Source: an uncultured Bacteroidota bacterium
GTDB taxonomy: Bacteria > Bacteroidota > Bacteroidia > Bacteroidales > VadinHA17
DNA: 44,666 nt
Direction: 5' to 3'
Assembly (NCBI GenBank): GCA_903844815.1
Contig: CAIMVD010000069.1
Location: 1-44,666 of the forward strand
Shown: piece by piece, positions 4,509 to 36,149 of the stretch
Layout: each line of letters opens with the position of its first letter
How positions within the stretch are numbered: the first letter of the stretch is position 1
Translations under genes and position numbers: made by a program
The notes under the pieces: generated by a model
The model's input: only the letters and a program-made list of their open reading frames with translations
Told to the model about the DNA's origin: nothing
Databases searched by the model: none

Positions 4509-4571
4509 TCAGGGAGTCAGAAACGAAACAAAGGAATAAGCCCCGATTACAAATCGGCGCTAGCGGGAGAA

Positions 4572-4630
4572 ACCTCTGTGTCCTCTGTGTCAGTTCTTAA
4601 CTTTTTGTTACACAGAGTTCCACAGAGGGT
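4572..4630. repeat. inverted CACAGAG-type intergenic repeat
   Basis: The left arm (4572-4590) contains CTCTGTG twice. The right arm (4610-4630) contains CACAGAG twice, so the arms are imperfect reverse complements about 20 bp long around a T-rich centre. It lies between convergent genes, the receptor ending at 4508 and the MerR-type gene ending at 4699, where the transcript could fold into a hairpin and stop transcription from both sides. A small palindrome, CCGATT-ACA-AATCGG, lies just upstream at about 4544-4558. Related heptamer repeats occur at 24.2, 29.7, 33.2 and 36.15 kb. Confidence 0.6.
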
Positions 4631-4698
4631 ATTTAATAACAACTCTAAATAATTTGACTGTTTAGGAGGCTTGTTACCAGGATAATAATGTTATTCGA

Positions 4699-5598
4699 CT
4701 AGCCCAGTTGTTGAATAGCCTTCAAAAAGTCAAACGGATCCCTTGTAATAATCAATTTCTCATTTCTTATCGGCGTAGGTTCCTCAGGTGAATCAGATAG
4801 TATTATCTTCTTCAGCATCAGTTCCTTGCTGATAGTACTGAAATAATTGATTTTCTTTTCATCAAAATCGAAAGAGCTTGAGTTAACCACCAGATAATCA
4901 AATGATTTTATCCTGTGTATTTCAACCACTTCCGAAGCAGGGAGGATACCCCCTGTAAAGATGACATCGAAGCCTCTTTTTCTAAGGGCATATTTATAAA
5001 AAAGGAAGTTGTTGTCAGTGATGCTGTCAGATGTATTTATCATAGCTATTGACATCCTGCTTTTACCTGTTACCGGTTTTACAAGGTCATCTTCTATGAT
5101 TATTATCTGTTTAACAGTATTCCTGACAAACTGTTCCTGTGCCCTTGAAAGGCTGCCTGTCTGCCACAAGATTCTTGCTTTTTCCAAAAGCGGGTGAAGG
5201 TATTTCACATATGCCTCCTCGATGCCATGGAATTTAATAAACGGAGCCAGAGCATCCTTGAATGCGCCCTCGTTGAATCTTATAGCCGACATAAGAATTT
5301 TTCCGGGCTGAAACTCCTGGTCGATGTCGTCGTGACGGCTGCTAACCATCATTACCTGCTGTGTAAGCTCATCTTCATCGAGCCTTGCTATCTTTGATAT
5401 CTTTAGCCCGTTACGGTTAAGATACGCGACATTAAGGATCTTTTTAAGCTCTGATTCAGTGTAGGTTCTGATGTTTGAATCGGTTCTGTCAGGTTCAAGA
5501 ATCTTGTACCTCTTCTCCCAGATCCTGATCGTATGGGCTTTTATACCCGAAAAATTCTCAAGATCTTTAATTGAAAAAACGTTTACCCCTTCTTCCAT
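4699..5598 (-). CDS. MerR-family transcriptional regulator with a degenerate B12-binding-type C-terminal region
   Basis: The 299-residue product has an N-terminal MerR winged helix (SIKDLENFSGIKAHTIRIWEKRY region, residues 9-31), a helical linker, and a C-terminal half shaped like CarH/LitR light- or cobalamin-sensing regulators. The helical W-x9-E motif is present (Trp145, Glu155), but the next residue, His in CarH, is Gln156. The DxHxxG cobalamin-binding motif is also not visible around residues 188-200. It therefore probably does not bind B12 through the usual ligands and may sense something else or act constitutively. An AGGAG Shine-Dalgarno lies shortly upstream of the ATG. It is transcribed away from the T9SS protein gene and its target is unknown. 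Confidence 0.82.
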   Translation of the reverse strand: MEEGVNVFSIKDLENFSGIKAHTIRIWEKRYKILEPDRTDSNIRTYTESELKKILNVAYLNRNGLKISKIARLDEDELTQQVMMVSSRHDDIDQEFQPGKILMSAIRFNEGAFKDALAPFIKFHGIEEAYVKYLHPLLEKARILWQTGSLSRAQEQFVRNTVKQIIIIEDDLVKPVTGKSRMSIAMINTSDSITDNNFLFYKYALRKRGFDVIFTGGILPASEVVEIHRIKSFDYLVVNSSSFDFDEKKINYFSTISKELMLKKIILSDSPEEPTPIRNEKLIITRDPFDFLKAIQQLG

Positions 5599-5764
5599 AT
5601 TACTTTCTCTCCTATTGTTTAGGGAATTTTAGATAATTAAAAAATTAAACACGATTTCTATTTAAATGATTAGCGAGATCTCCCTTTTACCTCTAACAAG
5701 TTTTACCAATACCTGTCTTCATTTATTCATTTTAATTTTGAGTGTCCGTATCCGTTGAATATAT

Positions 5765-6136
5765 CTACTCCGATTCTTCAACCATAATTTTCCTGACCAC
5801 TTTTGTCCCGTCACTGAAAATAATTGCAACAAGATACATCCCTCTCTTTGGATTATCAAGAAAGAGTTTTGTATATTGCTGAGGACTATTGTATTGCATT
5901 CTTAGGATATCCTGACCTATAATATTTGTCACCTTGACATACGACATATCCCTGTCGGCTTTTATTGTAAAACTATTCTCCCTGACAGGTACAGGGAATA
6001 TTGTCACATTAATGCCCGAACCTTCCCTTGTAATGGTTTTTTGCGGAATAGCTCCGATAACATTAACCGTATCCTTCTGTGCCTGACTAGTTAAAGCAAA
6101 GAGAAAAATAATAAGACTGAGTATGCTCTTTTTCAT
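5765..6136 (-). CDS. small T9SS C-terminal sorting-domain protein
   Basis: A 123-residue exported protein. It starts with a signal peptide (MKKSILSLIIFLFALTSQAQ), then about 25 linker residues, then a domain of about 80 residues resembling the type A T9SS sorting/adhesion domain: IFPVPVRENSF, a VTNIIGQ turn, a GMYLVAI strand and a short charged end. In this family the domain normally ends a large secreted protein; here almost no cargo precedes it. The frame opens further upstream, but Met at 6136 starts the signal peptide. kdsB lies upstream on the same strand, 53 bp from this start codon, so co-transcription is possible. Confidence 0.72.
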   Translation of the reverse strand: MKKSILSLIIFLFALTSQAQKDTVNVIGAIPQKTITREGSGINVTIFPVPVRENSFTIKADRDMSYVKVTNIIGQDILRMQYNSPQQYTKLFLDNPKRGMYLVAIIFSDGTKVVRKIMVEESE

Positions 6137-6189
6137 GGTTGCTTTTAAATAATCTACAACAAAAATTATGCTAAAGTTAATCATTTATT

Positions 6190-6963
6190 TCAAATAAACT
6201 GATCTAAAATTAGTTTTGCTTTTTCAAGGTCAGCGGGGGTGTCAATTCCAATGCTTTCCCAGGGTGTAACCGCAGTCCTGATCCTGAATCCGTTTTCAAT
6301 CCATCTGTTCTGTTCCAGCGATTCTGCTTTTTCAAGAGGGCTCTGTTCCAGACAAGTAAGCCTGTGAAGTACTGTTGTTCTGTAAGCATACAGGCCTATA
6401 TGCTTAAAATAAACATGTTTCGATGTCCAATTGTTCATTTCCACATCCCTTATGTAAGGTATCGGTGTCCTGCTGAAATAAATTGCATCCCCCTCCCTGT
6501 TGACGATTACTTTAGGCTGATTCGGATTGAAAATGTCTTCATCCTTTTCAACTTTTCTGATCAGGGTGGCTATTTCAACATTTTGGTCGTTGAAGCAATT
6601 CATGAGCAGTTCAATCTGTTCCGGCCTTACAAAGGGTTCATCTCCCTGAATATTAATAACTATATCAATCGGTTTGCCGGTTTCTTTACTGATAGAAGCT
6701 GCTGCTTCAGCACACCGGTCAGTGCCGCTCTGATGATCGGGACTTGTCATAATCGCCTTTCCTCCAAAGCTTATGACGGAATCAAAGATTCGCTTGTCAT
6801 CGGTTGCGACATATACCAGCCCGAGGCGTTTTGAAGCCTGTTCATAGACTCTTCGTATCATTGTCCTGTTGCCGATCATAGCCAGAGGCTTTCCGGGGAA
6901 CCGGGATGATGCAAAACGGGCAGGGATGATTCCTGCAAAATGGACGATCTGATCAGTTATCAT
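6190..6963 (-). CDS. kdsB: 3-deoxy-manno-octulosonate cytidylyltransferase (CMP-KDO synthetase)
   Basis: Activates KDO with CTP to CMP-KDO, the donor for lipid A inner-core synthesis in the cytoplasm. The 257-residue length is typical. The N-terminal nucleotide-binding signature is clear (IIPARFASSRFPGKPL, residues 13-28), followed by ATDDKRI and by QGDEPFV, which holds metal- and substrate-binding acidic residues. The C-terminal half has the expected YFSRTPIPY segment and a WESIGIDTPADLEKA end. It is transcribed divergently from the sigma-54 activator across a 73-bp gap that must hold both promoters; a near-consensus TAAATTCG box precedes the ATG on this strand. Confidence 0.96.
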   Translation of the reverse strand: MITDQIVHFAGIIPARFASSRFPGKPLAMIGNRTMIRRVYEQASKRLGLVYVATDDKRIFDSVISFGGKAIMTSPDHQSGTDRCAEAAASISKETGKPIDIVINIQGDEPFVRPEQIELLMNCFNDQNVEIATLIRKVEKDEDIFNPNQPKVIVNREGDAIYFSRTPIPYIRDVEMNNWTSKHVYFKHIGLYAYRTTVLHRLTCLEQSPLEKAESLEQNRWIENGFRIRTAVTPWESIGIDTPADLEKAKLILDQFI

Positions 6964-7010
6964 GGTGCGAATTTACGAAAAATGGATTTCCCGTTAAATT
7001 AAAAAAAAGT

Positions 7011-7018
7011 TAAATTTG
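7011..7018 (+). promoter_or_regulatory. TAnnTTTG -7 box for the sigma-54 activator
   Basis: TAAATTTG matches the Bacteroidota -7 consensus TAnnTTTG, with TTTC 20 bases upstream in the -33 position. It lies 18 bases before ATG 7037, so the in-frame TTG at 7016, inside the box, is unlikely to be the start codon. Confidence 0.55.
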
Positions 7019-7036
7019 CACAATTGGATAAAGGAA

Positions 7037-8281
7037 ATGAAAGATTTACAAAATATTAAACAGAGGTTTGGCATTATAGGCAATTTTGAAGGCCTCAACC
7101 GGGCAATTGACATCGCGGTACAGGTTGCACCCACCGATCTTTCAGTTCTGATAACCGGTGAGAGCGGAACGGGAAAGGAAATCTTTCCTCAGGTTATTCA
7201 CAGTTATAGTGCCAGAAAGCATGGTCAGTATATTGCAGTAAACTGTGGCGCCATTCCTGAAGGTACAATTGATTCAGAGCTTTTTGGTCACGAAAAGGGC
7301 TCATTTACAGGAGCTACCGACAGCAGGAAAGGCTATTTTGAAGTTGCCGACGGTGGGACAATTTTTCTCGATGAAGTTGCTGAACTGCCCTTATCTACTC
7401 AGGTCCGGCTCCTGAGGGTACTCGAAACAGGTGAGTTCATCAGGGTAGGATCTTCAAAGGTTCAGAAGACAAATGTAAGGGTTATTGCCGCAAGCAATGT
7501 GGATGTTCCCGGAGCAATAGATAATGGTAAATTTCGCGAAGACCTGTTTTACAGGCTGAATACTGTTCCCATCAGGATACCTGCTCTCAGGGAAAGAGGG
7601 GAAGATATTTTTCTTCTTTTCAGAAAGTTCTCCGTTGACTTTGCTGAAAAATACCGGATGCCTGCAATCAGGCTCGATTCGGAAGCAAAACAGGCTCTCA
7701 TCGATTATTCCTGGCCGGGAAATGTGAGGCAACTTAAGAATATTACAGAACAGATATCCATAATAGAGAGCGAAAGAGAGATTGTCGTTGCCGGACTCAG
7801 AAATTATCTTCCCGATTATGGCAAAACCAAGCTTCCCGCAGTTATAAGGAAGGAGGAAGACAAGTCGTTCTCCTCCGAAAGAGAGATTCTTTACAAGATC
7901 CTTTTCGACATGAAGAGCGATATGAATGACCTGAAAAAACTTGTCTTTGATCTTATAAGGAACGGAGAGGTCGATATCGCTGTCCAGAAAACAAGCCCGG
8001 GGTTCATAAAGAATCTTTTCAGGGAAGCTGATCCCGGGGAAGATGTTGCGACTGACACCAGAACTGAAACTGTTGAATTTCAGCAACACCAAACAAGAAA
8101 CGACATTCAGGATACGGAAGAGATTATAGAAGAATCTCTTTCTCTTTCGGGCAAAGAGGAGGAGATGATCAAAAAAGCACTCGAGAAATACAACGGAAAA
8201 AGAAAGATGGCAGCCACTGAGCTGGGCATTTCGGAACGGACACTTTACAGAAAAATAAAAGAGTATGGGATTGAATCGTAA
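7037..8281 (+). CDS. sigma-54-dependent transcriptional activator without a receiver domain
   Basis: A 414-residue AAA+ activator of sigma-54 RNA polymerase. It has Walker A GESGTGKE (41-48), the sigma-54-contact loop GSFTGA (88-93, Ser instead of the commoner Ala), Walker B GTIFLDE (107-113), and a Fis-type helix-turn-helix in the last 40 residues (KMAATELGISERTLYRKIKEYG). There is no N-terminal receiver or sensory domain, so control must come from expression level, partner binding or the linker of about 130 residues before the DNA-binding domain. It heads the lptE-secG cluster and its last 17 bases overlap lptE, which implies translational coupling. Confidence 0.92.
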   Translation: MKDLQNIKQRFGIIGNFEGLNRAIDIAVQVAPTDLSVLITGESGTGKEIFPQVIHSYSARKHGQYIAVNCGAIPEGTIDSELFGHEKGSFTGATDSRKGYFEVADGGTIFLDEVAELPLSTQVRLLRVLETGEFIRVGSSKVQKTNVRVIAASNVDVPGAIDNGKFREDLFYRLNTVPIRIPALRERGEDIFLLFRKFSVDFAEKYRMPAIRLDSEAKQALIDYSWPGNVRQLKNITEQISIIESEREIVVAGLRNYLPDYGKTKLPAVIRKEEDKSFSSEREILYKILFDMKSDMNDLKKLVFDLIRNGEVDIAVQKTSPGFIKNLFREADPGEDVATDTRTETVEFQQHQTRNDIQDTEEIIEESLSLSGKEEEMIKKALEKYNGKRKMAATELGISERTLYRKIKEYGIES

Positions 8282-8807
8282 AAACAATGCTGCCGTGTAC
8301 GGTAAAATGGTTTTCATTCTGGCTGTGACTGCCATTCTGGCTTTAAACTACGGCTGCAAAGTGTCGTATTCCTTTTCAGGAGCAAGCATCTCACCATCTG
8401 TCAGGACTTTCAGCGCCCAGTATTTCCAAAACAGGGCGCCACTTGTTCAGCCGGGGCTCGGACAGTTTATCACTGATGAACTAATTGATAAGTGCAAGAC
8501 CCAGACGAGTCTTAAATATGTTACGGGTATCGGCGATGTAAGCTTTGAAGGGGAGATAACCGATTACAATACCCGTCCTCTCACCGTATCGGCCGATGCA
8601 AATGCTGCAACCAACAGGTTTACAATTACAGTTAAAGTCAAATTTGTCAATTCAATTGATCCTGATAATAGCTATGAGCAGACATTTTCGCGTTATGAAG
8701 ACTACGATAGCAATCTCGATCTGAGCCAGGTGGAAACTGATCTCTCCAGGAAGATTGTCGAAATGATTGTGGAGGATATTTTTAATAAGGCTTTCGTCAA
8801 CTGGTAG
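8265..8807 (+). CDS. lptE: LptE-family LPS assembly lipoprotein
   Basis: A predicted outer-membrane lipoprotein of 180 residues. The lipobox ends LNYGC (Cys31) after a hydrophobic stretch. The body matches the Bacteroidota LptE type: YSFSGASIS just after the lipobox, then an alternating strand/helix core (GDVSFEGEITDYNTRPL, RFTITVKVKF, SYEQTFSRY). LptE plugs the LptD barrel and helps deliver LPS to the cell surface. The start overlaps the preceding activator by 17 bp; Met15 (8307) is an alternative that would shorten the signal peptide. The gene product following it begins six bases downstream. Confidence 0.85.
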   Translation: MGLNRKNNAAVYGKMVFILAVTAILALNYGCKVSYSFSGASISPSVRTFSAQYFQNRAPLVQPGLGQFITDELIDKCKTQTSLKYVTGIGDVSFEGEITDYNTRPLTVSADANAATNRFTITVKVKFVNSIDPDNSYEQTFSRYEDYDSNLDLSQVETDLSRKIVEMIVEDIFNKAFVNW

Positions 8808-8812
8808 CAGAC

Positions 8813-9613
8813 ATGAGAAGAAGCGACTTTTTGAGTATGTTGGGAGGGACAGCTCCGGTGAACCGGGGTGTGCTTGGGGAATTGTATGAGCTGATAGGGG
8901 TGTTCCCGTATTTTCAAAGCGCTCACCTGTTGCTTCTGAAAGGGCTTCATGATAATTCGGATGTGAAATTCGAAAGCCAGCTCCGTAATTCAGCGATACA
9001 AATCGCCGACAGGGAGATTCTCTATTATATTCTTAATCCCCGTTCTGTCTCTGAAATCCTGCCGGAAGAATCATTGCCTGAGAATTCTGTCCCTGAAGAA
9101 ACCATTGACCATAGCGCACAGACGGTTATTGAAGAAGTATCGGAGGTCATGATCCTTGACGAAAGCAACGACATCTCAGGCGAAGATCAGCCTTTTTATT
9201 CCGATCCGGGTATTTTCGAGCATGAAAGTGCCGATGACCTTCTTGAATTCGAGACAGGGTCTGAACAGCAGGAAACAGAGGAGGAAGCCGGGACAAAAGA
9301 AGGAACCTCGTCCTTAGAGGAAAAACCGGGCAGCAAGCAGCTTCAGGCAGAGCTGATTGAAAAATTCATTATTACAAATCCGCGTATTGAACCGTCGAGA
9401 GAAAAGGTAGCCGGGCCTCTGGAGGATATTTCCAACGCAGATACCGGGGAGGAGGGAGGTTTTGTTACTGAAACTCTTGCAAAAATTTATATCGGACAGA
9501 GTTATTACTCAAAGGCTATTGATATTTATGAAAAATTAAGTTTGAAATTTCCGGAAAAAAGTAGTTACTTTGCCACTCAAATTGAAAAAGTTAAAGAGTA
9601 TTTAAAAAAGTGA
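8813..9613 (+). CDS. conserved acidic protein with C-terminal TPR-like segment
   Basis: I do not recognise a named family. The 266-residue product has no signal peptide or membrane segment. An N-terminal helical region (about 1-85, with FPYFQSAHLLLLKGLHD) is followed by a long Glu-rich, low-complexity stretch (about 85-185). The C-terminal 50 residues read as one TPR-like helical hairpin (TLAKIYIGQSYYSKAIDIYEKL) plus a third helix. It sits between lptE (6-bp gap) and secG (4-bp gap), so it is co-translated with envelope and secretion genes. From memory, proteins like this occur at the same place in other Bacteroidales, which favours a scaffold or adaptor role. Confidence 0.75.
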   Translation: MRRSDFLSMLGGTAPVNRGVLGELYELIGVFPYFQSAHLLLLKGLHDNSDVKFESQLRNSAIQIADREILYYILNPRSVSEILPEESLPENSVPEETIDHSAQTVIEEVSEVMILDESNDISGEDQPFYSDPGIFEHESADDLLEFETGSEQQETEEEAGTKEGTSSLEEKPGSKQLQAELIEKFIITNPRIEPSREKVAGPLEDISNADTGEEGGFVTETLAKIYIGQSYYSKAIDIYEKLSLKFPEKSSYFATQIEKVKEYLKK

Positions 9614-9617
9614 ACAG

Positions 9618-10004
9618 ATGGGAATATATATTTTTGTTTCAGTATTAGTAATTGTTGCTTGTTTTCTTCAGATTCTGATTGTCCTTGTACAGAATTCCAA
9701 GGGAGGAGGACTGGCTGCCAACTTTACTTCAGCAGGGCAGTCGATGGGTGTTCGCAAAACCGCTGACTTCCTTGAGAAATCAACATGGTCACTTGCAGCT
9801 GCTATACTTATCCTTTGCGTTGTTGCTACAGCTACAATTCCAAGGGGAGAGACAACAGGCCGTTCAAGGATTCAGACCCAGATTGATAATGCTGTTGATC
9901 CGAATGCAATTCCGACACTTCCTACAGCTGCTCCTCCATCAGGTTCTACAACTCCCGCCAACACAACTGTTCCCCCGGCAAATTCACCTGCCCCGGTAAA
10001 ATAG
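9618..10004 (+). CDS. secG: preprotein translocase subunit SecG
   Basis: Accessory subunit of the SecYEG channel in the inner membrane. The 128-residue protein has two membrane helices (about 2-22 and 54-75) joined by the typical conserved loop (LVQNSKGGGLAANF), with a glycine-rich turn and a conserved Phe-Thr-Ser region. The tail after residue 85 is unusually Pro/Thr/Ala-rich and looks disordered. It begins 4 bp after the TPR-like gene and is followed by a strong terminator, so it closes the operon that begins with the sigma-54 activator. Confidence 0.93.
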   Translation: MGIYIFVSVLVIVACFLQILIVLVQNSKGGGLAANFTSAGQSMGVRKTADFLEKSTWSLAAAILILCVVATATIPRGETTGRSRIQTQIDNAVDPNAIPTLPTAAPPSGSTTPANTTVPPANSPAPVK

Positions 10005-24727: not shown

Positions 24728-26713
24728 TTATTTCTCGTAATAGACTCTTCTTTTAACATCACTGACGAATTCTTTGATTTGCTGCCTGACCTCTTTGTCA
24801 GAAAGCAGATTAGTACCTTCCTTTGCAGAGGATAAGGTTTTGTTTTTATTAGGACCCACGTCGGAAGCAATATCCCTGAGGACTTTAATTAATCTTTCGA
24901 TATCCTTTTCGCTGTTCCCGATGCCAAAGCTCACTCTTACAACACCGGGCAGGGCTATTCCGGGAAACAATCGCAGCATAATTCCCTGAAACTTCTCCAG
25001 TGCCGGCGGAACATTGAGCAGATGCTTTATTAACAGATGAGAACAATGACATCCGTACCTGACACCGATACCACCCCGTGCTGCAAGTTGCTTTGCGACC
25101 TTGTTTGGCATAATGCCTTTCAGATTGAAAACAATGACTCCTCCCTTGCAGTCAAGCCGTGGTGATACCGGGTCCTTTATTCCGAAAATGGTGAGACCTT
25201 TTATTTTGGCCAGTCCTGCCAGGGTCATACGTGTAAGAGTTTGTTCTTCATTCCTGATCACCTCAGGTCCGATACGTTCCAGCAGCAAGAGCGATTTGCC
25301 GAGTGCTGCAATTCCGGCTGCATTTTCCTCGCCCGATGATTTAACCAACTCAAGTTCATCAGCTTTAAAGTTCATCAGACCCTTCCTTACAACCAGAGCT
25401 CCTGTGCCAAAGGGTGCATAGGCTTTATGCGCCGAAAATGCAAGAAAGTCTATATTGCACCGGTCCATTTCGATTCTGCGGTGGGCTAACATCTGAGCCG
25501 CATCCACCAGGAGCCTTGCATTGTACTTATGAACAATCCTGCTGATTTCATTCAGATCGTTGAATACTCCAAGAACATTGGATGCTCCGGAAACGGCAAC
25601 AATCTTTATTCGCTTCTGTCCGTATCTTTCGTCGCGGTTGTAACTGCCGAGTATGTTGTCGAGTTCATTCAGATCGATAAAGCCTTCTGGATCAGATTTT
25701 ATCCGGACAAGTGTAACCCCTGGAATCATGCGCCATGGCAGGTCGTTCGAATTGTGTTCCAGGAGGGTATTGAGAACCACTGTTTCCGTCTGCTGAGAGG
25801 GTTCACGGTTCATGTTTTCGGCTGCCAGATTAATAGCCTCAGTAGTATTTGATGTAAAGATAACGTCATAGAAATCAGACGGGGCGTCAAGGAATCGGGC
25901 ACAGATTGACCTGACTTCACTTATGATCTCCTTCTGCACCGAAACTGGTTGTCGCAGTGTAAGGCATACCGTTTTCCAAACCGGGAGAAGTGCAGGTGTG
26001 CTTGCGGCGTTGTCGAGATTTAAGAAAGGAACAGCTCCCTGCGTTGATGGAACTGAAAGATCTGATCCTATAATATTTTTCCTTAGTTCGATAAGCAATT
26101 TCTGACCTGCAGAGGCTTCAAATTCATCTGAATACAGGATTTGGGTCACAGTTAGTTTTTCAATCGTAGCGTTTCTGAACGCGTTTACTCCATATTGTTT
26201 GATCAGAAGAAGAGCCTTAGCGAATGCTATCACGTTGATAATAGCAGGGGTGCCTGCTTCAAATTTATCAGGCTCGTTTGCCCAGATGACCCAGGTTGGT
26301 GCAACAAGCCTTGTCGTTCCTCCGCCTGATTGAATCGGAGCTCCTTTTGGCAAGGCCTTACGGTTGATTACCAGGGCACTCACCCCCAGAGGAAGACCTG
26401 TTTCACGGCTTGTCAGTACCTTATAACTTTCAGGATTTAGTCGTGCCGAAATGGCGATTGCTCTTCTGGTTGTACAAAAGATGACAACATATTTGCCCTT
26501 TTTCAAACCAAGGTACTCCAGTACAATTTCCCGGGCATGTTCAAACAGCTGAGTCGTTGCCATAGAGAAGTGCCCGCTTCCCCGATGGACGTTTGAATAG
26601 GTTTCCAGGGCTGCGTGAATTCCCTTTTCAAGCTCATCAAATGCCCTGTTTGTTTCATAGCCTTCCCTGAGGTTGACCTTTCCAGTATAAATCTCATTAC
26701 TTCCAGTTTCCAC
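24728..26713 (-). CDS. tandem class-V aminotransferase / cysteine desulfurase-like protein
   Basis: A 661-residue PLP-fold protein made of two unequal class-V units. The first (about 1-215) has SNVHRGSGHFS (41-51), PLGVSALVINRKAL (108-121) and DKFEAGTPAI (149-158), but lacks the roughly 200 middle residues that carry the PLP lysine. The second (about 228-620) has LDNAAS (233-238), SNTTEAIN, LEHNSND, Asp404 in VDAAQ, His411 and Schiff-base Lys430 in FSAHK, plus GCHCSH near 560, where the desulfurase catalytic Cys would sit. The second unit is therefore probably active while the first is structural. The substrate is not known. The start is GTG. It is a single-gene unit converging on tRNA-Arg. 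Confidence 0.8.
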   Translation of the reverse strand: METGSNEIYTGKVNLREGYETNRAFDELEKGIHAALETYSNVHRGSGHFSMATTQLFEHAREIVLEYLGLKKGKYVVIFCTTRRAIAISARLNPESYKVLTSRETGLPLGVSALVINRKALPKGAPIQSGGGTTRLVAPTWVIWANEPDKFEAGTPAIINVIAFAKALLLIKQYGVNAFRNATIEKLTVTQILYSDEFEASAGQKLLIELRKNIIGSDLSVPSTQGAVPFLNLDNAASTPALLPVWKTVCLTLRQPVSVQKEIISEVRSICARFLDAPSDFYDVIFTSNTTEAINLAAENMNREPSQQTETVVLNTLLEHNSNDLPWRMIPGVTLVRIKSDPEGFIDLNELDNILGSYNRDERYGQKRIKIVAVSGASNVLGVFNDLNEISRIVHKYNARLLVDAAQMLAHRRIEMDRCNIDFLAFSAHKAYAPFGTGALVVRKGLMNFKADELELVKSSGEENAAGIAALGKSLLLLERIGPEVIRNEEQTLTRMTLAGLAKIKGLTIFGIKDPVSPRLDCKGGVIVFNLKGIMPNKVAKQLAARGGIGVRYGCHCSHLLIKHLLNVPPALEKFQGIMLRLFPGIALPGVVRVSFGIGNSEKDIERLIKVLRDIASDVGPNKNKTLSSAKEGTNLLSDKEVRQQIKEFVSDVKRRVYYEK

Positions 26714-29847: not shown

Positions 29848-30429
29848 ATGGAGGGAGGATTCTTTGAAGGAACGACGATTCAGAAAGCTGACTTTACAGT
29901 AACCCCGCTTGAAAAGGGAGAATATGAAGAATGCAGCTTCATCAGCTGTGATTTTTCGGCTTCAGATTTGTCGGGCATTATTTTTACCGATTGCCGGTTC
30001 ACTTATTGCAACCTCAGCCTGGCAGGTGTTACAATGGCTGCCTTCAGGGATGTAAGATTCATTGAATGCAAGATGCTTGGTATTGATTTCAGTACATGCA
30101 ATAAGACGGGCCTCTCATTCAGTTTTGAAAAATGCATGCTCAGCAATTCTTCATTCCGTAATATAATAATTAAAAAGACCAGTTTCGTCAATTCCCTTCT
30201 TGCTGAGGCCGATTTCACGGAATGTAATCTTTCAGGTTCTTTGTTTGAAAGTTGCGACCTTACAAGAGCTGTTTTTGAAAATACTGTAATAGAAAAATGT
30301 GACTTTAGGACCTCCTTCAATTATTCAATCGATCCTGAAATTAACAGGATAAAACGGGCGAAATTTTCACTGCATGGTGTCCCCGGACTGTTGCAGAAAT
30401 ACAATATTGAAATTGATTTTGACAGCTGA
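29848..30429 (+). CDS. pentapeptide-repeat protein (Qnr/MfpA-like fold)
   Basis: A 193-residue soluble protein built from degenerate pentapeptide repeats of the A(D/N)LXX kind, for example ADFTECNLSGSLFESCDLTR, which fold as a right-handed quadrilateral beta-helix. The C-terminal tail (SIDPEINRIKRAKFSLHG then a GLLQKYNIEID helix) is the capping and dimerisation-like end seen in chromosomal Qnr-type proteins. Some relatives protect DNA gyrase by mimicking DNA, but most chromosomal members have no proven role, so resistance should not be assumed. Many cysteines occupy repeat positions. It is a single gene with no linked regulator. Confidence 0.85.
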   Translation: MEGGFFEGTTIQKADFTVTPLEKGEYEECSFISCDFSASDLSGIIFTDCRFTYCNLSLAGVTMAAFRDVRFIECKMLGIDFSTCNKTGLSFSFEKCMLSNSSFRNIIIKKTSFVNSLLAEADFTECNLSGSLFESCDLTRAVFENTVIEKCDFRTSFNYSIDPEINRIKRAKFSLHGVPGLLQKYNIEIDFDS

Positions 30430-30544: not shown

Positions 30545-31798
30545 ATGACAGCTTCATCAAGGAAAAATTTTACTGAAACGATAAATCATCGTCAGCCCGA
30601 CAGGGTAGTAGTGGATTTTGGTTCGACGGGAGTAACCGGGATTCATATTGCCATTGTTGAGAAGCTGCGTAATTACTATGGACTTGAAAAGAGACCTGTT
30701 AAGGCTGTTGAGCCTTATCAGATGCTGGGTGAAGTCGAAAGTGATCTGATTGATGCCATGGGCATAGACGTGGTTGGATTATTTGGGGCTAAGAATATGT
30801 TCGGCGTCCCGAATGAGGACTGGAAGCTTCATAAAACACTTTGGGGCCAGGAGGTCCTTTTCCCGGGAAGTTTCAACTATACCTACAACAGCAACGGGGA
30901 TATCCTTATGTATCCCGAAGGTGACACTACGGTTCCTCCCAGCGCGATGATGCCCAGGTCAGGCTTCTTTTTCGATGCTCTCGACAGGCAGGAGCCGGTC
31001 GATGATGCCACCCTTAAAGTTGAAGATAATCTCGAAGAATTCGGCCATATAACACCTGCTGAGCTTCAGTACTGGAAACGACAGGCGGATTCAGTCCGGG
31101 ACGGATCCAAGGTTGTTGTAGCTTCATTCGGCGGTACCGCACTGGGCGACATTGCCCTGGTTCCTGCCATGAATCTTAAGCATCCAAAGGGTATTCGAGG
31201 TGTTGAGGAATGGTATATTTCAACTCTGATCCGTGAGGATTTCGTCAGAGAGATTTACGACCGTCAGACAGATATTGCCCTTGAGAACATGAAACTGCTC
31301 TGGGAAACTGTCGGAAACGCGGTAGATGTTGTTTTTACCTGCGGGACAGATTTTGGCACCCAGAATTCCACTTTCTGTTCGCCTGAGACATTCGACAGCC
31401 TCTGGCTGCCGTATTACAGGAAGGTAAATGACTGGATACATTCAAATACAACATGGAAGACTTTCAAACATTGCTGCGGAGCAATTGAGCCCCTTATGTC
31501 AAATTTCATTGAAGCCGGCTTCGATATTATTAATCCTGTTCAGATAAATGCTGCCGGGATGGATCCTGTGAAGCTGAAAAAGGAATATGGCGACAAGATT
31601 GTATTCTGGGGAGGAGGAGTTGACACACAGGGAGCTTTTGCCTTTGGAACACCGGCAGAAGTTAAGGAGCAGGTAAGGAGACAGTGTGAGATCCTTAACA
31701 GGAACGGGGGATTTGTTTTTAATACAGTTCATAATATTCAGGCCAATGTGCCATTTGAAAACGTTGTGGCTATGCTCGAGGCCCTGAGTGAGTTATGA
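30545..31798 (+). CDS. UroD-family zinc methyltransferase-like protein
   Basis: A 417-residue TIM-barrel protein of the uroporphyrinogen decarboxylase superfamily. It looks nearer the zinc corrinoid methyltransferases (MtaA/MtbA/CmuA type) than true HemE: a His309-x-Cys311 pair occurs in FKHCCGAIEPL. His396 in NTVHNIQ sits 85 residues later, where the third zinc ligand (a Cys in MtaA) would be. HemE's usual role in heme synthesis is therefore unlikely. The stop overlaps the sugar-porter start by 4 bp, so it is translationally coupled to sugar uptake. No corrinoid-binding partner is encoded nearby. A methyl-transfer role on a carbohydrate is inference. Confidence 0.82.
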   Translation: MTASSRKNFTETINHRQPDRVVVDFGSTGVTGIHIAIVEKLRNYYGLEKRPVKAVEPYQMLGEVESDLIDAMGIDVVGLFGAKNMFGVPNEDWKLHKTLWGQEVLFPGSFNYTYNSNGDILMYPEGDTTVPPSAMMPRSGFFFDALDRQEPVDDATLKVEDNLEEFGHITPAELQYWKRQADSVRDGSKVVVASFGGTALGDIALVPAMNLKHPKGIRGVEEWYISTLIREDFVREIYDRQTDIALENMKLLWETVGNAVDVVFTCGTDFGTQNSTFCSPETFDSLWLPYYRKVNDWIHSNTTWKTFKHCCGAIEPLMSNFIEAGFDIINPVQINAAGMDPVKLKKEYGDKIVFWGGGVDTQGAFAFGTPAEVKEQVRRQCEILNRNGGFVFNTVHNIQANVPFENVVAMLEALSEL

Positions 31799-33186
31799 AA
31801 GTGCCATCTTATAACTGGAATTATCTCATTGCTATTTCTCTTGTTTCGGCAATGGGGGGACTTCTTTTCGGGTATGACTGGGTGGTTATTGGTGGTGCAA
31901 AGCCGTTTTATGAGCCATTTTTTGGAATTACGGGGAGTGCTTTCCTGCAGGGCTGGGCGATGAGCTGCGCTCTTGCAGGCTGCCTTGCCGGTGCTGTCAT
32001 TTCAGGCTGGCTGAGCGACAGGTTTGGCCGAAAGAAGTTACTGTTGCTTTCTGCAGCTCTTTTTATAGCGGCTTCGCTTGGGACAGGCGCGGCAGAAACA
32101 TTCAGTGCGTTTGTTATTTTCAGGATAATCGGCGGCGTTGGAATAGGACTTGCTTCAAACCTTTCTCCAATGTACATAGCTGAAATAACCCCCGCAAATG
32201 TAAGGGGAAGGTTTGTTTCAATAAATCAGCTGACCATAGTTGTCGGAATTCTTGCCGCACAGCTTATTAACTGGAGGATAGCCGAACCGGTACCTTTAGG
32301 ATCAACTGTTGCGGAGATTCTTAATTCATGGAATGGACAGACAGGCTGGAGATGGATGTTTTTTGCCTGTACCGCTCCTGCAACCCTGTTTTTTATCCTG
32401 ATGTGGTTTGTTCCCGAAAGCCCCAGATGGCTTGCAAAATACCCTGCAAGACAAAGCCGTGCTTTAAAGATTCTGACTAAAATCGGAGGAACGGAATTTG
32501 CCGGGTCAGAGATGAAATATATCATTGAATCATTAAAGGCAGATACCGGGAAATCGGAACTGCCGCTTCTGAAACAACCAGGGATAAGCAAAATTCTTTT
32601 AGTCGGGATAGTCATAGCAGTATTTCAGCAATGGTGCGGCATAAATGTTATTTTCAACTACGCACAGGAGATATTCTCCGGTGCGGGATACAGCGTTTCG
32701 GATATACTTTTCAATATTGTCATCACAGGAAGTGTGAATCTCATCTTTACCTTTGTTGGTATGTTTACGGTTGACAGGCTTGGACGCAAGGCCCTTATGC
32801 TTTTTGGTGCCGGAGGCCTTGCCGGAATATTTGCAGTTACCGGAACAATGTACTTTTTTCATGTTCAGGGTCTTCCGTTACTGATAATGGTTGTCACAGC
32901 CATTGCCTGTTATGCCATGTCGCTGGCTCCTGTAACCTGGGTGGTTCTCTCCGAGATCTTCCCAAACCGGATCCGTGGAGCTGCAATGTCGGTGGCTACT
33001 TTTGCACTATGGGCTGCCTGTTTTGTGCTGACTTATACCTTCCCGTTGCTGAATGCTGTACTGAAAGCCTCTGGCACATTCTGGCTTTACGGGATGATTT
33101 GCCTGATTGGTTTCTGGTTTATACTTAAAAAACTGCCTGAGACAAAAGGGAAGACTCTCGAAGAGATTGAGAAGGAATTGACCTGA
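31795..33186 (+). CDS. sugar porter family MFS transporter
   Basis: A 463-residue inner-membrane symporter with about 12 membrane helices. Sugar-porter signatures are present: GWLSDRFGRKK between helices 2 and 3 (71-81), PESPRWL (about 204-210), the repeated VDRLGRKALML in the second half, and PETKGKTLEEIE at the C-terminus. The family imports hexoses or pentoses with protons; the exact sugar cannot be read. The ATGA overlap with the UroD-family gene and the GH2 gene following at 107 bp place it in a sugar-use operon. Confidence 0.93.
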   Translation: MKVPSYNWNYLIAISLVSAMGGLLFGYDWVVIGGAKPFYEPFFGITGSAFLQGWAMSCALAGCLAGAVISGWLSDRFGRKKLLLLSAALFIAASLGTGAAETFSAFVIFRIIGGVGIGLASNLSPMYIAEITPANVRGRFVSINQLTIVVGILAAQLINWRIAEPVPLGSTVAEILNSWNGQTGWRWMFFACTAPATLFFILMWFVPESPRWLAKYPARQSRALKILTKIGGTEFAGSEMKYIIESLKADTGKSELPLLKQPGISKILLVGIVIAVFQQWCGINVIFNYAQEIFSGAGYSVSDILFNIVITGSVNLIFTFVGMFTVDRLGRKALMLFGAGGLAGIFAVTGTMYFFHVQGLPLLIMVVTAIACYAMSLAPVTWVVLSEIFPNRIRGAAMSVATFALWAACFVLTYTFPLLNAVLKASGTFWLYGMICLIGFWFILKKLPETKGKTLEEIEKELT

Positions 33187-33196
33187 GCTCTTTTTT

Positions 33197-33255
33197 GCCA
33201 CAAAGGCGCTAAGGCACAAAGCATTAGCTCACTTCGCGAATTCGTGCCTTCGCGG
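33197..33255. repeat. inverted AAGGC/CACAAAG-type intergenic repeat
   Basis: The left arm (33197-33221) reads GCCACAAAGGC then AAGGCACAAAG. The right arm (33231-33255) is an imperfect reverse complement containing CGTGCCTTCGCGGC. The arms align with conserved AAGGC and CAC(A/G)AAG cores. It fills most of the gap between the sugar porter and the GH2 gene, so it may fold in the mRNA and adjust read-through. Confidence 0.55.
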
Positions 33256-33293
33256 CAGGAATATCAAGCTTAAAATCTGTAATATAGTTTACT

Positions 33294-36149
33294 ATGAAAA
33301 AAATACTTTTTCTCCTTTTGATAGCTGCAGCCTGCACAAACCAGAATCCTGTTGTAAGGGACACAATGCCGCTGGCCGGCGAATGGAAATTCCTGATCGA
33401 CTCTCTCGACCAGGGAATTAATAATAGTTGGTATGAGAATCTTTCTGAGGAAACAGTCACTCTCCCGGGTTCAATGGCTGAAAACGGGAAGGGAGATGAA
33501 GTATCGCTGAAAACTCCGTGGACCGGTGATATTGTTGATCAGTCATATTTCACCGAAAAGAAGTATGAGAAATACAGGCAGCCGGGGAACATCAAAATCC
33601 CGTTCTGGCTTAAACCGGTTAAATATTATAAAGGTGCTGCATGGTATCAGAAGGAATTTGAAATCACGGCAGGGTGGAAAGAGAAAAGAGTATTACTTTT
33701 TCTGGAAAGACCGCATTGGGAAACATCGGTTTGGGTCAACGGGAAGAATGCAGGTACCGAGAACAGCCTTTCTGCTCCTCATACTTATGATATTACGGAA
33801 TTTATTGTCAGCGGGAAAAACAGGATAAGTGTGAGGGTCGATAACAGGATGATAATCCCTGTAGGTGTCAATTCGCACAGTGTCAGCGACCATACTCAGT
33901 CGAACTGGAATGGGATCGTGGGAAACATATCCCTGATTGCAACATCTCCGGTTTTTATTAATAATGTCACAATCTTCCCCGAAGTAAAAGAAGGAAAGGC
34001 GAAGGTTATCGTGGCTCTTACAAATAAAACTGGTGCATCGTTTCACGGTAAGCTGACGCTCAGTGCTGAAAGTTTTAACACGTCAGATCCGGAACAGGTC
34101 AGGAGCAAAACATTTGAAGTCAGCAGCGATGCTTCAGGCACAGAGATAGTCGCAGATTTTCAGCTGGGTAAGAATATCAGGCTGTGGAGCGAGTTTTCCC
34201 CGTCATTATACCGGCTCAGGGTGAATCTTGAAAATGAAAATGGCAAGTTGATCGATTCTGAGTCGGAGGATTTTGGCATGAGGGAGTTTAAAACCTCAGG
34301 GACCAGATTTGTGGTCAACGGACAGCAGATTTTTATCAGGGGAACACTTGAGTGCTGTATTTTCCCGCTTACAGGTTATCCTCCTACTGATGTTGCATCA
34401 TGGGAGAAAGTCCTTGGGAAAATAAAGGAATATGGTCTTAATACAGTAAGATTTCACTCATGGTGCCCTCCGGAAGCTGCATTCACTGCCGCCGATAAAC
34501 TCGGGCTCTATTTTCAGATCGAATGTGCCTCATGGGCGAACCAGGGTACTACCTTAGGCGATGGAAGCCCAATTGACAAATATATTTATCAGGAGGGCGA
34601 CAGAATAATGAGGGAGTACGGAAATCATCCTTCATTCTGCATGCTGGCTTACGGCAATGAACCGGCAGGCGACAAACAGGCAGAATATCTTGGCAAGCTG
34701 CTTGATTACTGGAAATTAAAAGATAACAGGCGAGTGTATACCTCGGCTGCAGGCTGGCCATTCATCCCTGAAAATGATTATGACCTCTCTCCGGAACCAA
34801 GGATTCAGCATTGGGGCGAAGGCTTGAAAAGCGTTATCAATTCAAAAGCCCCTGAGACTATCTACGATTTCCGCGATTATGTTTCGAAGTTTACTGTACC
34901 TGTAGTGGGGCATGAGATTGGACAGTGGTGTGTTTATCCCGATTTCAGCGAGATAGCAAAATATACGGGGGTGCTTAAGGCAACGAATTTTGAGATCTTC
35001 CGGGAAACGCTTAATGATAACAACATGGGTTCTCAGGCGGACGATTTTTTAAAGGCTTCGGGAAAGTTGCAGGCATTGTGCTACAAGGCTGATATTGAAG
35101 CAGCTTTAAGGACCCCCGGATTTGCCGGTTTTCATCTCCTGCAGCTCCATGATTTTCCTGGTCAGGGTTCCGCCCTGGTAGGTATACTAAATCCGTTTTT
35201 TGAATCTAAGGGGTATATTACTGCTGAGGAATTCAGGAGGTTCTGTTCTGAAACTGTTCCACTGGCCAGAATGCAGAAACAGGTTTTCAGCAGCAATGAG
35301 ACATTCTCGGCTACGGTCGAGCTGGCTCACTTTGGGGCAGAACCCCTGAGAGATAAGGAAGTCATCTGTGTCATAACTAACCAGGCAGGTGACACTCTTA
35401 CCTCTGAATCTTTCAAAAAAGACAGGATAGAGATTGGAAATTGCATTCCCGTTGGGGTCTTATCATACGGACTCTCATCCATTACGGGTCCTCAGAAACT
35501 TTCGCTGGTAGTCTCGCTGAAAAATACTGTATTCAGAAACAACTGGGATTTCTGGGTTTATCCGGAAGTTCAGGCAGTTATTCCCGGGAATGTACTGATT
35601 ACCGACAAACTCGATGAAAAGGCTGAGAAAATCCTTGGAAGAGGAGGATCGGTTCTTCTGTTGGTTAACGGAAGAGTAGCTAAGGATAAAGGAGCCCGGG
35701 TTGCAACAGGCTTTTCTGCAATCTTCTGGAATACTGCCTGGACTAACAACCAGGCACCTCATACAATGGGCATACTGTGCGATCCGCTTAATCCTTTTTT
35801 CAAGGATTTCCCAACTGAATTCCATACCAACTGGCAGTGGTGGGACCCGGTGGCTCACTCACAAGCCATGATACTCAACGGGTTTCCTGCAGGAGTAAAG
35901 CCATTAATACAAATGATCGATACCTGGTTTGAAAACAGGAGGCTTGCTCTCGCATTCGAATCAAAAACGGGAGGAGGAAAACTCCTGGTCTGCAGCATTG
36001 ACCTGAAAAATCTTCCTGCTGAAAGAATAGTTTCGAAACAGCTTTTGATGTCGGTACTTAATTATATGAACAGCAATCAGTTTAATCCTTCAGCAGAGGT
36101 GCCGGTAAAGCAGATTTTGAGTTTAACAGAAAACAATACTTCTTTTTAA
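33294..36149 (+). CDS. glycoside hydrolase family 2 lipoprotein
   Basis: A 951-residue envelope glycosidase. The signal peptide ends in lipobox AAAC (Cys14), so it is lipid-anchored. Domains in order: GH2 sugar-binding jelly roll (about 25-215, with WHKKEFEI-like GAAWYQKEFEITAG), immunoglobulin-like sandwich (about 215-335), TIM barrel (about 340-630) and C-terminal extensions. Acid/base Glu456 lies in YGNEPAG and nucleophile Glu541 in VVGHEIGQW; their spacing suits GH2. Activity could be beta-galactosidase, beta-glucuronidase, beta-mannosidase or another; the sequence does not decide. It probably releases a sugar for the upstream porter. Confidence 0.9.
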   Translation: MKKILFLLLIAAACTNQNPVVRDTMPLAGEWKFLIDSLDQGINNSWYENLSEETVTLPGSMAENGKGDEVSLKTPWTGDIVDQSYFTEKKYEKYRQPGNIKIPFWLKPVKYYKGAAWYQKEFEITAGWKEKRVLLFLERPHWETSVWVNGKNAGTENSLSAPHTYDITEFIVSGKNRISVRVDNRMIIPVGVNSHSVSDHTQSNWNGIVGNISLIATSPVFINNVTIFPEVKEGKAKVIVALTNKTGASFHGKLTLSAESFNTSDPEQVRSKTFEVSSDASGTEIVADFQLGKNIRLWSEFSPSLYRLRVNLENENGKLIDSESEDFGMREFKTSGTRFVVNGQQIFIRGTLECCIFPLTGYPPTDVASWEKVLGKIKEYGLNTVRFHSWCPPEAAFTAADKLGLYFQIECASWANQGTTLGDGSPIDKYIYQEGDRIMREYGNHPSFCMLAYGNEPAGDKQAEYLGKLLDYWKLKDNRRVYTSAAGWPFIPENDYDLSPEPRIQHWGEGLKSVINSKAPETIYDFRDYVSKFTVPVVGHEIGQWCVYPDFSEIAKYTGVLKATNFEIFRETLNDNNMGSQADDFLKASGKLQALCYKADIEAALRTPGFAGFHLLQLHDFPGQGSALVGILNPFFESKGYITAEEFRRFCSETVPLARMQKQVFSSNETFSATVELAHFGAEPLRDKEVICVITNQAGDTLTSESFKKDRIEIGNCIPVGVLSYGLSSITGPQKLSLVVSLKNTVFRNNWDFWVYPEVQAVIPGNVLITDKLDEKAEKILGRGGSVLLLVNGRVAKDKGARVATGFSAIFWNTAWTNNQAPHTMGILCDPLNPFFKDFPTEFHTNWQWWDPVAHSQAMILNGFPAGVKPLIQMIDTWFENRRLALAFESKTGGGKLLVCSIDLKNLPAERIVSKQLLMSVLNYMNSNQFNPSAEVPVKQILSLTENNTSF

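Follow-up and report, generated by a model that had tools for sequence, protein, structure and literature searches.

Three adjacent genes in an uncultured Bacteroidales bacterium (VadinHA17) probably encode the substrate-specific half of a corrinoid-dependent system that removes, without oxygen, the O-methyl group of a methylated, galactose-type monosaccharide, with tetrahydrofolate (THF) as methyl acceptor. The genes lie within positions 1 to 44,666 of contig CAIMVD010000069.1 (forward strand; assembly GCA_903844815.1), a stretch called the window here. As the original prediction had described, a gene of the uroporphyrinogen decarboxylase (UroD) superfamily, a sugar porter gene, and a glycoside hydrolase family 2 (GH2) gene follow one another on a single strand, with the UroD stop codon overlapping the porter start in an ATGA at 31795-31798. 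Throughout, L numbers label loci, G numbers label genomes, and C200, C310, and C360 are contigs of the window's own genome. The features of the unit are as follows.

30545..31798, plus strand: UroD-superfamily protein, 417 aa; predicted sugar-methyl-ether:corrinoid methyltransferase (methyltransferase I), based on PF01208, an AlphaFold 2 (AF2) model, Foldseek, and corrinoid genes that adjoin it in relatives
31469..31477, plus strand: codons for His309-Cys310-Cys311, of which His309 and Cys311 are the first two predicted zinc ligands (HxC)
31730..31732, plus strand: codon for His396, the third predicted zinc ligand
31795..33186, plus strand: sugar porter of the major facilitator superfamily (MFS), XylE-like, 463 aa
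33294..36149, plus strand: GH2 protein with a lipoprotein-like start, 951 aa; likely of the exo-beta-galactosidase type (BT4151-like)

The UroD protein matches PF01208 (URO-D) over residues 230-416 with 52.2 bits. AF2 modeled it with a mean pLDDT of 94.5 from an input alignment of 38 sequences, the window's included, and the top Foldseek match of this model was the M. mazei methylcobalamin:coenzyme M (CoM) methyltransferase (4ay8/4ay7; E = 3e-12, TM-score 0.55-0.66, 16% identity). Uroporphyrinogen decarboxylases came next, followed by cobalamin-independent methionine synthases (MetE). The Pfam match and the methylcobalamin methyltransferase fold place the protein in the methyltransferase I superfamily, and the structural model agrees with the methyltransferase-like character first proposed for it. 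Scores fell far under the family cut-offs for TIGR01463 (44.1 vs 235.4 bits), MtaA (30.8 vs 400), and MtbA (21.8 vs 600), and membership of MtaA or CmuA was rejected on the model scores.

The zinc triad of the original prediction (His309, Cys311, and His396) was found at each position in 112/112 aligned UroD-family proteins, an alignment that includes the window protein and omits L138, a duplicate, as well as all proteins no longer than 350 aa. Because one of the six search patterns spans H309-C311, these two residues were partly selected for; none of the patterns spans H396. In profile alignments, H309 and C311 coincide with the HxC of 4AY7, and H396 with the Cys of its GCGI segment. The equivalent MtaA residues are presumably zinc-binding, and we take the zinc ligands of the MtaA/MtbA/CmuA family to be His-x-Cys ... 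Cys. The window protein keeps the HxC pair of MtaA/MtbA but differs from them in having His at the third position, in its length (417 vs ~340 aa), and in its low identity and model scores. We infer that H309, C311, and H396 bind zinc. An invariant site of this kind would assist in cleaving alkyl ethers, in which the leaving group is poorer than a phenol.

The two neighbors of the UroD gene are predicted to handle sugars. The porter matches Sugar_tr (PF00083) with 367.8 bits and the SP-family model TIGR00879 with 344.5 bits, above the cut-off of 237.8; among solved structures, it is closest to those of D-xylose symporters (D-xylose-proton symporter, 307 bits). The GH2 protein has GH2 domains, scores 1012.8 bits against PDB 8u01, and matches the NCBIfam exo-beta-1,4-galactosidase BT4151 model (NF049890) nearly full length; at 1280.6 bits, it stays under the equivalog cut-off of 1500 and is not assigned to the BT4151 group. 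BT4151 itself presumably belongs to a rhamnogalacturonan-I locus of Bacteroides thetaiotaomicron. The GH2 part of the earlier description as a GH2 lipoprotein was borne out by these matches; the lipoprotein part comes from the protein's start (MKKILFLLLIAAAC), judged by eye. An imperfect inverted repeat, GGCGCTAAGGCAC ... GTGCCTTCGCGGC, was also spotted by eye in the gap between the porter and GH2 genes (33187-33293).

The three genes are linked in relatives of the window. We defined close orthologues as UroD proteins scoring at least 700 bits (n = 31 loci, window excluded) and counted same-strand neighbors within 7 kb, with thresholds of at least 450 bits for the porter and at least 1000 bits for GH2; some contigs end near the loci. 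A porter orthologue accompanied UroD in 22/31 close loci and a GH2 orthologue in 24/31; both were present in 18/31 and neither in 3/31, a linkage beyond chance, part of which is accounted for by common ancestry of the gene order. In the KSB1 genome of L055, the porter and GH2 pair flanks the UroD gene as well.

The original prediction had stated that no corrinoid protein is present. This is true of the window but fails at the level of the genome, where contig C200 (L163) carries, in trans to the window, a corrinoid protein and a THF-linked methyltransferase within one run of four genes (L163:5963-9777):

9067-9777, minus strand: corrinoid protein, 236 aa, PF02310 and PF02607 (Pfam scan)
8213-9055: pterin-type methyltransferase II (NF005719, methyl-THF:corrinoid methyltransferase, 267.5 bits, cut-off 259)
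6725-8179: MetF/MetV fusion (MetFV)
5963-6664: stand-alone MetH-type activation domain (PF02965)

The own genome also encodes formate-THF ligase. Among ten further regions, six from members of the genus (G087, G076, G063, G045, G040, and G068) keep the four-gene order of C200; that of G103 is without MetFV, and in that of G010 the corrinoid protein alone was recognized. Two other roles for the C200 set were rejected. Use in methanol or MttB-type methylamine/betaine demethylation was set aside as the own genome has no match to MtaB or MttB, the only methyltransferase I families searched. A split methionine synthase was set aside as C360 holds a 1216-aa frame with both B12 domains (MetH by inference); the Pfam scan found no homocysteine-binding domain in the four C200 genes.

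The two sets are connected in G042, a member of the same genus, in which orthologues of both form one same-strand run (L208) with a largest gap of 70 bp:

8726-9982: UroD protein, 73% identity
7987-8655: corrinoid protein, 82%
7143-7997: methyltransferase II, 76%
5704-7143: MetFV, 66%
4227-5654: 475-aa protein resembling GH53 endo-beta-1,4-galactanases (7osk, 220 bits)
2812-4203: porter, 78%
1-2786: GH2 protein, 68%, cut by the contig end

Since the corrinoid protein and methyltransferase II stand in this run with UroD, the porter, and GH2, the methyl acceptor, called unknown in the original prediction, has an obvious candidate in THF, reached via methyltransferase II.

Similar arrangements recur in the window's family, in which a UroD relative was detected in 72/117 genomes at E = 1e-30 and in 61 at E = 1e-80. 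Formate-THF ligase, UroD, corrinoid protein, and methyltransferase II are direct neighbors in G039 (L209), and G095 (L135) has a corrinoid protein gene beginning 48 bp after UroD. In G036 (L132), a set of corrinoid protein, methyltransferase II, MetFV, activation domain, second UroD, and formate-THF ligase lies 1.35 kb downstream of UroD, separated from it by a single AraC-type gene on the opposite strand. Thus, 4/61 genomes (G042, G039, G095, and G036) place a strong UroD relative and a corrinoid protein on the same strand no more than 1.5 kb apart (Poisson P = 3e-7 to 6e-5, using a rough guess of 0.05-0.2 expected). Over a wider distance, 16/115 loci have a corrinoid protein no more than 6 kb from UroD; nine of these loci belong to one rumen Bacteroidales group. 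Corrinoid proteins were detected in 56/61 UroD-bearing genomes compared with 38/56 others (Fisher P = 0.002, uncorrected for kinship). Formate-THF ligase stands immediately before UroD in L058, next to it in L209, and within the corrinoid set of L132, 6.4 kb from UroD; these positions suggest that the methyl group is used to regain ATP.

Two side observations concern these loci. Rumen Bacteroidales loci L068, L073, L076, L077, L079, L085, L089, and L111 share a run of UroD, corrinoid protein, second UroD, and MFS genes, in some cases with an activation-domain cluster before the second UroD; the MFS protein of L076 is nearest a galactonate-transporter model, under its cut-off. A Tannerellaceae bacterium encodes a methanol:corrinoid methyltransferase (MtaB) at L063:1813-3189 beside UroD and a corrinoid protein; a relative of it, assigned by clustering, lies at L065:7376-8729. 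The two MtaB genes hint at methanol use in Bacteroidota.

We propose the following mechanism. The GH2 protein would release a beta-linked galactose-type sugar bearing an O-methyl group, and the XylE-like porter would bring the monosaccharide into the cytoplasm. The UroD protein, acting as methyltransferase I, would bind the sugar, with the His-Cys-His zinc polarizing the ether oxygen, and the methyl group would move to the Co(I) of the small corrinoid protein encoded on C200. The free sugar would enter catabolism, and methyltransferase II would pass the methyl group from the corrinoid protein to THF. MetFV would then oxidize it, with exit as formate and a gain of ATP through formate-THF ligase being possible, and the stand-alone activation domain would reactivate the corrinoid protein. 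The weakest step is the nature of the sugar, which in the window is probably galactose-like. As the own genome has no GH53 match, the case for galactan is built on the GH2 match together with the GH35 and GH53 genes of relatives. The earlier suggestion that a modified, for example methylated, sugar is released, imported, and stripped of its group gains support from the best fold match and the sugar-gene neighbors, with the methylation itself standing as a supposition.

The system is O-demethylase-like. The anaerobic O-demethylases MtvB, OdmB, VdmB, and MtoB likewise combine a UroD-superfamily methyltransferase I, a small corrinoid protein, and a methyltransferase II, with transfer to THF or H4MPT (PMC13222342, PMC8630106, PMC10989822). 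In the described order of events, methyltransferase I moves the methyl group to Co(I), methyltransferase II moves it to THF, and an activating enzyme rescues oxidized cobalt (PMC10989822, PMC8630106). Three of these four components have counterparts here, and the differences lie in the reactivation enzyme, the third metal-ligand position, and the apparent substrate. Unlike the described enzymes, the window unit has sugar-handling neighbors and an invariant His-Cys-His triad, a distinction drawn from descriptions rather than sequences. In place of an ATP-dependent activating enzyme, C200 carries the MetH-type activation domain; no match to the RACo/RamA-type activator PF14574 was found in the own genome, which is 97.8% complete. 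Together, these two observations suggest that the catabolic corrinoid protein of C200 is reactivated by S-adenosylmethionine-dependent rather than ATP-dependent means.

Among solved relatives, the chloromethane methyltransferase CdmB (9rui) is also a UroD-superfamily methyltransferase I that works with a corrinoid protein and a methyltransferase II. Unlike the predicted zinc site of the window protein, it is reported to be without zinc, and our UroD profile matches it at E = 0.05 only. In the same source, vanillate and veratrole O-demethylases contain zinc, whereas CdmB and a Moorella enzyme do not (PMC13222342). The bathyarchaeial lignin methyltransferase MtgB was rejected as the same protein, being ~300 aa and described as having no homology to known methyltransferase I proteins (PMC10989822).

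Sugar genes accompany UroD relatives more widely. Several close loci add a 3-keto-disaccharide hydrolase, a Gfo/Idh/MocA oxidoreductase, a xylose-isomerase-like protein, or GH35. Among all relatives, UroD neighbors include GH2, GH35, GH53, GH29, arabinofuranosidase, and GH120, together with 3-keto-disaccharide hydrolase, Gfo/Idh/MocA, RhaT, RhaM, RhaA, and UxaC. The own genome's second His-Cys-His UroD (C310, L155:9254-13896) lies on one strand in the order RhaT, UroD, alpha-L-fucosidase, and rhamnose mutarotase, which is likely a sister unit for a methylated 6-deoxysugar. The KSB1 locus L055 reads GH2, rhamnose mutarotase, porter, UroD, alpha-L-rhamnosidase (BT4145 model, 906 bits, cut-off 1300), and L-rhamnose isomerase, and a distant UroD relative of Flexilinea (L114, 32%) has glucuronate isomerase alongside. 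The 80 loci scoring 250-700 bits still include some from the window's genus. In 65 of the 80, UroD has one or more same-strand neighbors within 200 bp; a corrinoid protein occurs in 13, porter relatives occur in 9, and three ABC-transport-like clusters (ATPase, permease, and binding protein or LacI-like, the binding protein being the one scanned) occur in 6 each. A 556-aa gene at L040, taken by its length for formate-THF ligase, proved to be a sodium:solute symporter. The gene-neighborhood survey proposed with the original prediction turned up sugar genes beside relatives elsewhere, but not everywhere.

Several points weigh against the demethylation reading. The released sugar is presumed to be methylated, and the metal site does not favor a sugar over an aromatic substrate because some aromatic O-demethylases contain zinc. 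The window contains no corrinoid gene, the G042 run holds neither the activation domain nor formate-THF ligase, and 28/31 close loci have the porter and/or GH2 but revealed no corrinoid gene up to 6 kb away. The own genome's missing matches to GH53 and the RACo-type activator count on the same side. Five of the 61 UroD-bearing genomes, all 70-88% complete, have no corrinoid protein at E = 1e-30, and its presence in 38/56 genomes without a strong UroD relative indicates that other methyltransferases use the corrinoid set as well. Among the 83 loci below 700 bits, a porter relative was near 9 and a GH2 orthologue near 2, with L106, a truncated close relative, counted in both. A pooled Pfam scan of 98 operon neighbors revealed no dominant sugar family (at most 3/54 and 3/44 share one); genes for ATP synthase, FtsK, and histidine synthesis were among the neighbors. 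Glycosidases are also common in these genomes, and the neighbor counts are given without a background rate.

UroD relatives extend beyond the family. A phylum-wide even draw gave one at E = 1e-80 in 3/296 genomes, the own genome counted, and a single GTDB genome scan gave 86, of which 80 were kept. By record title, these come from Bacteroidota, Spirochaetes, Clostridia, Sedimentisphaerales, KSB1, Opitutaceae, Acidobacteria, Gemmatimonadales, Flexilinea, and archaea, mostly as metagenome-assembled genomes with unverified binning. Species with a named relative include Puteibacter caeruleilacunae (L038, protein 65% identical) and Pontiella sulfatireligans (L062, 56%). The patchy spread suggests horizontal transfer. 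In a quick 60-row tree (rows of the family thinned to <62% identity, SH-aLRT support only, several long branches), the window protein groups among His-Cys-His relatives of many phyla. It is separate from an own-genome paralogue whose Cys is MtaA-like (C72), from the second UroD of L132, and from E. coli HemE, the sole HemE used and an outgroup on a long branch. The His-Cys-His group is not one clade (6 changes) because paralogues from Lactonifactor and KSB1, several with the same motif, fall inside it. The genome of Lactonifactor longoviformis (G412, genome of L094) has 33 PF01208 matches with several metal-site types.

The methyl donor might instead be a methoxylated aromatic, such as a lignin-type monomer or the aglycone of a phenolic glycoside, demethylated by the same corrinoid machinery while the glycosidase and porter handle the sugar part. 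We consider this unlikely. Several of the 33 Lactonifactor matches are of the His-Cys-His type, and we take this organism to be an O-demethylator of lignans. The known UroD-superfamily enzymes MtvB, OdmB, VdmB, and MtoB also demethylate methoxy-aromatics, some with zinc (PMC13222342; MtoB, PMC8630106). However, the adjoining transporter is a sugar porter, RhaT stands at the locus of the own paralogue, isomerases and mutarotases for free sugars lie beside relatives, and the match to the solved relative CdmB is marginal.

It is quite improbable that the UroD protein works on the acceptor side, in the manner of MtaA, with the corrinoid protein as methyl donor and a sugar-derived compound or a thiol as recipient. 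Methylcobalamin:CoM methyltransferases supply both the best fold match and the model matches given above, and an MtaB-family gene lies near UroD in L063 (scanned) and L065 (by clustering). Yet the pterin-type methyltransferase II of the UroD and corrinoid loci L132, L208, and L209 can fill that role, the own genome has no MtaB match, and the MtaA and MtbA scores are far below cut-off. We give equally little credence to a function in sugar catabolism that does not involve methyl groups, such as that of a zinc-dependent lyase or isomerase, with incidental corrinoid proximity in some relatives; the 28 close loci in which no nearby corrinoid gene was found would fit it, but direct UroD orthologues in G042, G095, and G036 (71-73% identity) lie near corrinoid genes. 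A uroporphyrinogen decarboxylase of heme synthesis with coincidental sugar neighbors can be dismissed, as the original prediction had anticipated: the fold family is shared and His396 aligns by profile with the His of the FNLGHGI segment in a solved uroporphyrinogen decarboxylase, but the hemE model TIGR01464 gave no match at E = 1e-3, and the protein stands apart in the tree from the one HemE included, that of E. coli, which is without the HxCG motif.

Two other genes of the window were noted. A pentapeptide-repeat protein is encoded at 29848-30429 (plus strand), 115 bp upstream of the UroD gene, and clustering gave no relative of it beside other UroD loci. At 24728-26713 (minus strand) lies a gene for a 661-aa protein that, by eye, is cysteine desulfurase/class V aminotransferase-like with a long additional N-terminal part.

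O-methylated sugars occur in many polysaccharides. In the open PMC library, anaerobic corrinoid O-demethylation is described for lignin-type aromatics and not for sugars, and we found no description there of corrinoid-dependent demethylation of sugars. The sole described removal of a sugar methyl group found in that literature is by a P450 monooxygenase, which demethylates 6-O-methyl-D-galactose in porphyran-degrading marine Flavobacteriia. There, too, a methylated galactose loses its methyl group; unlike the window system, in which no oxygen is expected and the methyl would stay on THF, the P450 reaction yields formaldehyde (PMC10033563). For the unit described here, the genes and their partner set can be named and the reaction can be tested. 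With slightly better than even odds, we further propose a family of anaerobic sugar O-demethylases of the His-Cys-His UroD type in Bacteroidota, Spirochaetota, Bacillota, KSB1, Planctomycetota, Verrucomicrobiota, Bathyarchaeota, and others. Each operon would set the methylated sugar (galactose, rhamnose, fucose, or uronate), and a shared corrinoid protein would feed the methyl group to THF and formate as a source of energy and one-carbon (C1) units without oxygen. If true, this would tie polysaccharide breakdown to corrinoid C1 metabolism in Bacteroidota and hint at what a large set of UroD-superfamily proteins from several phyla does.

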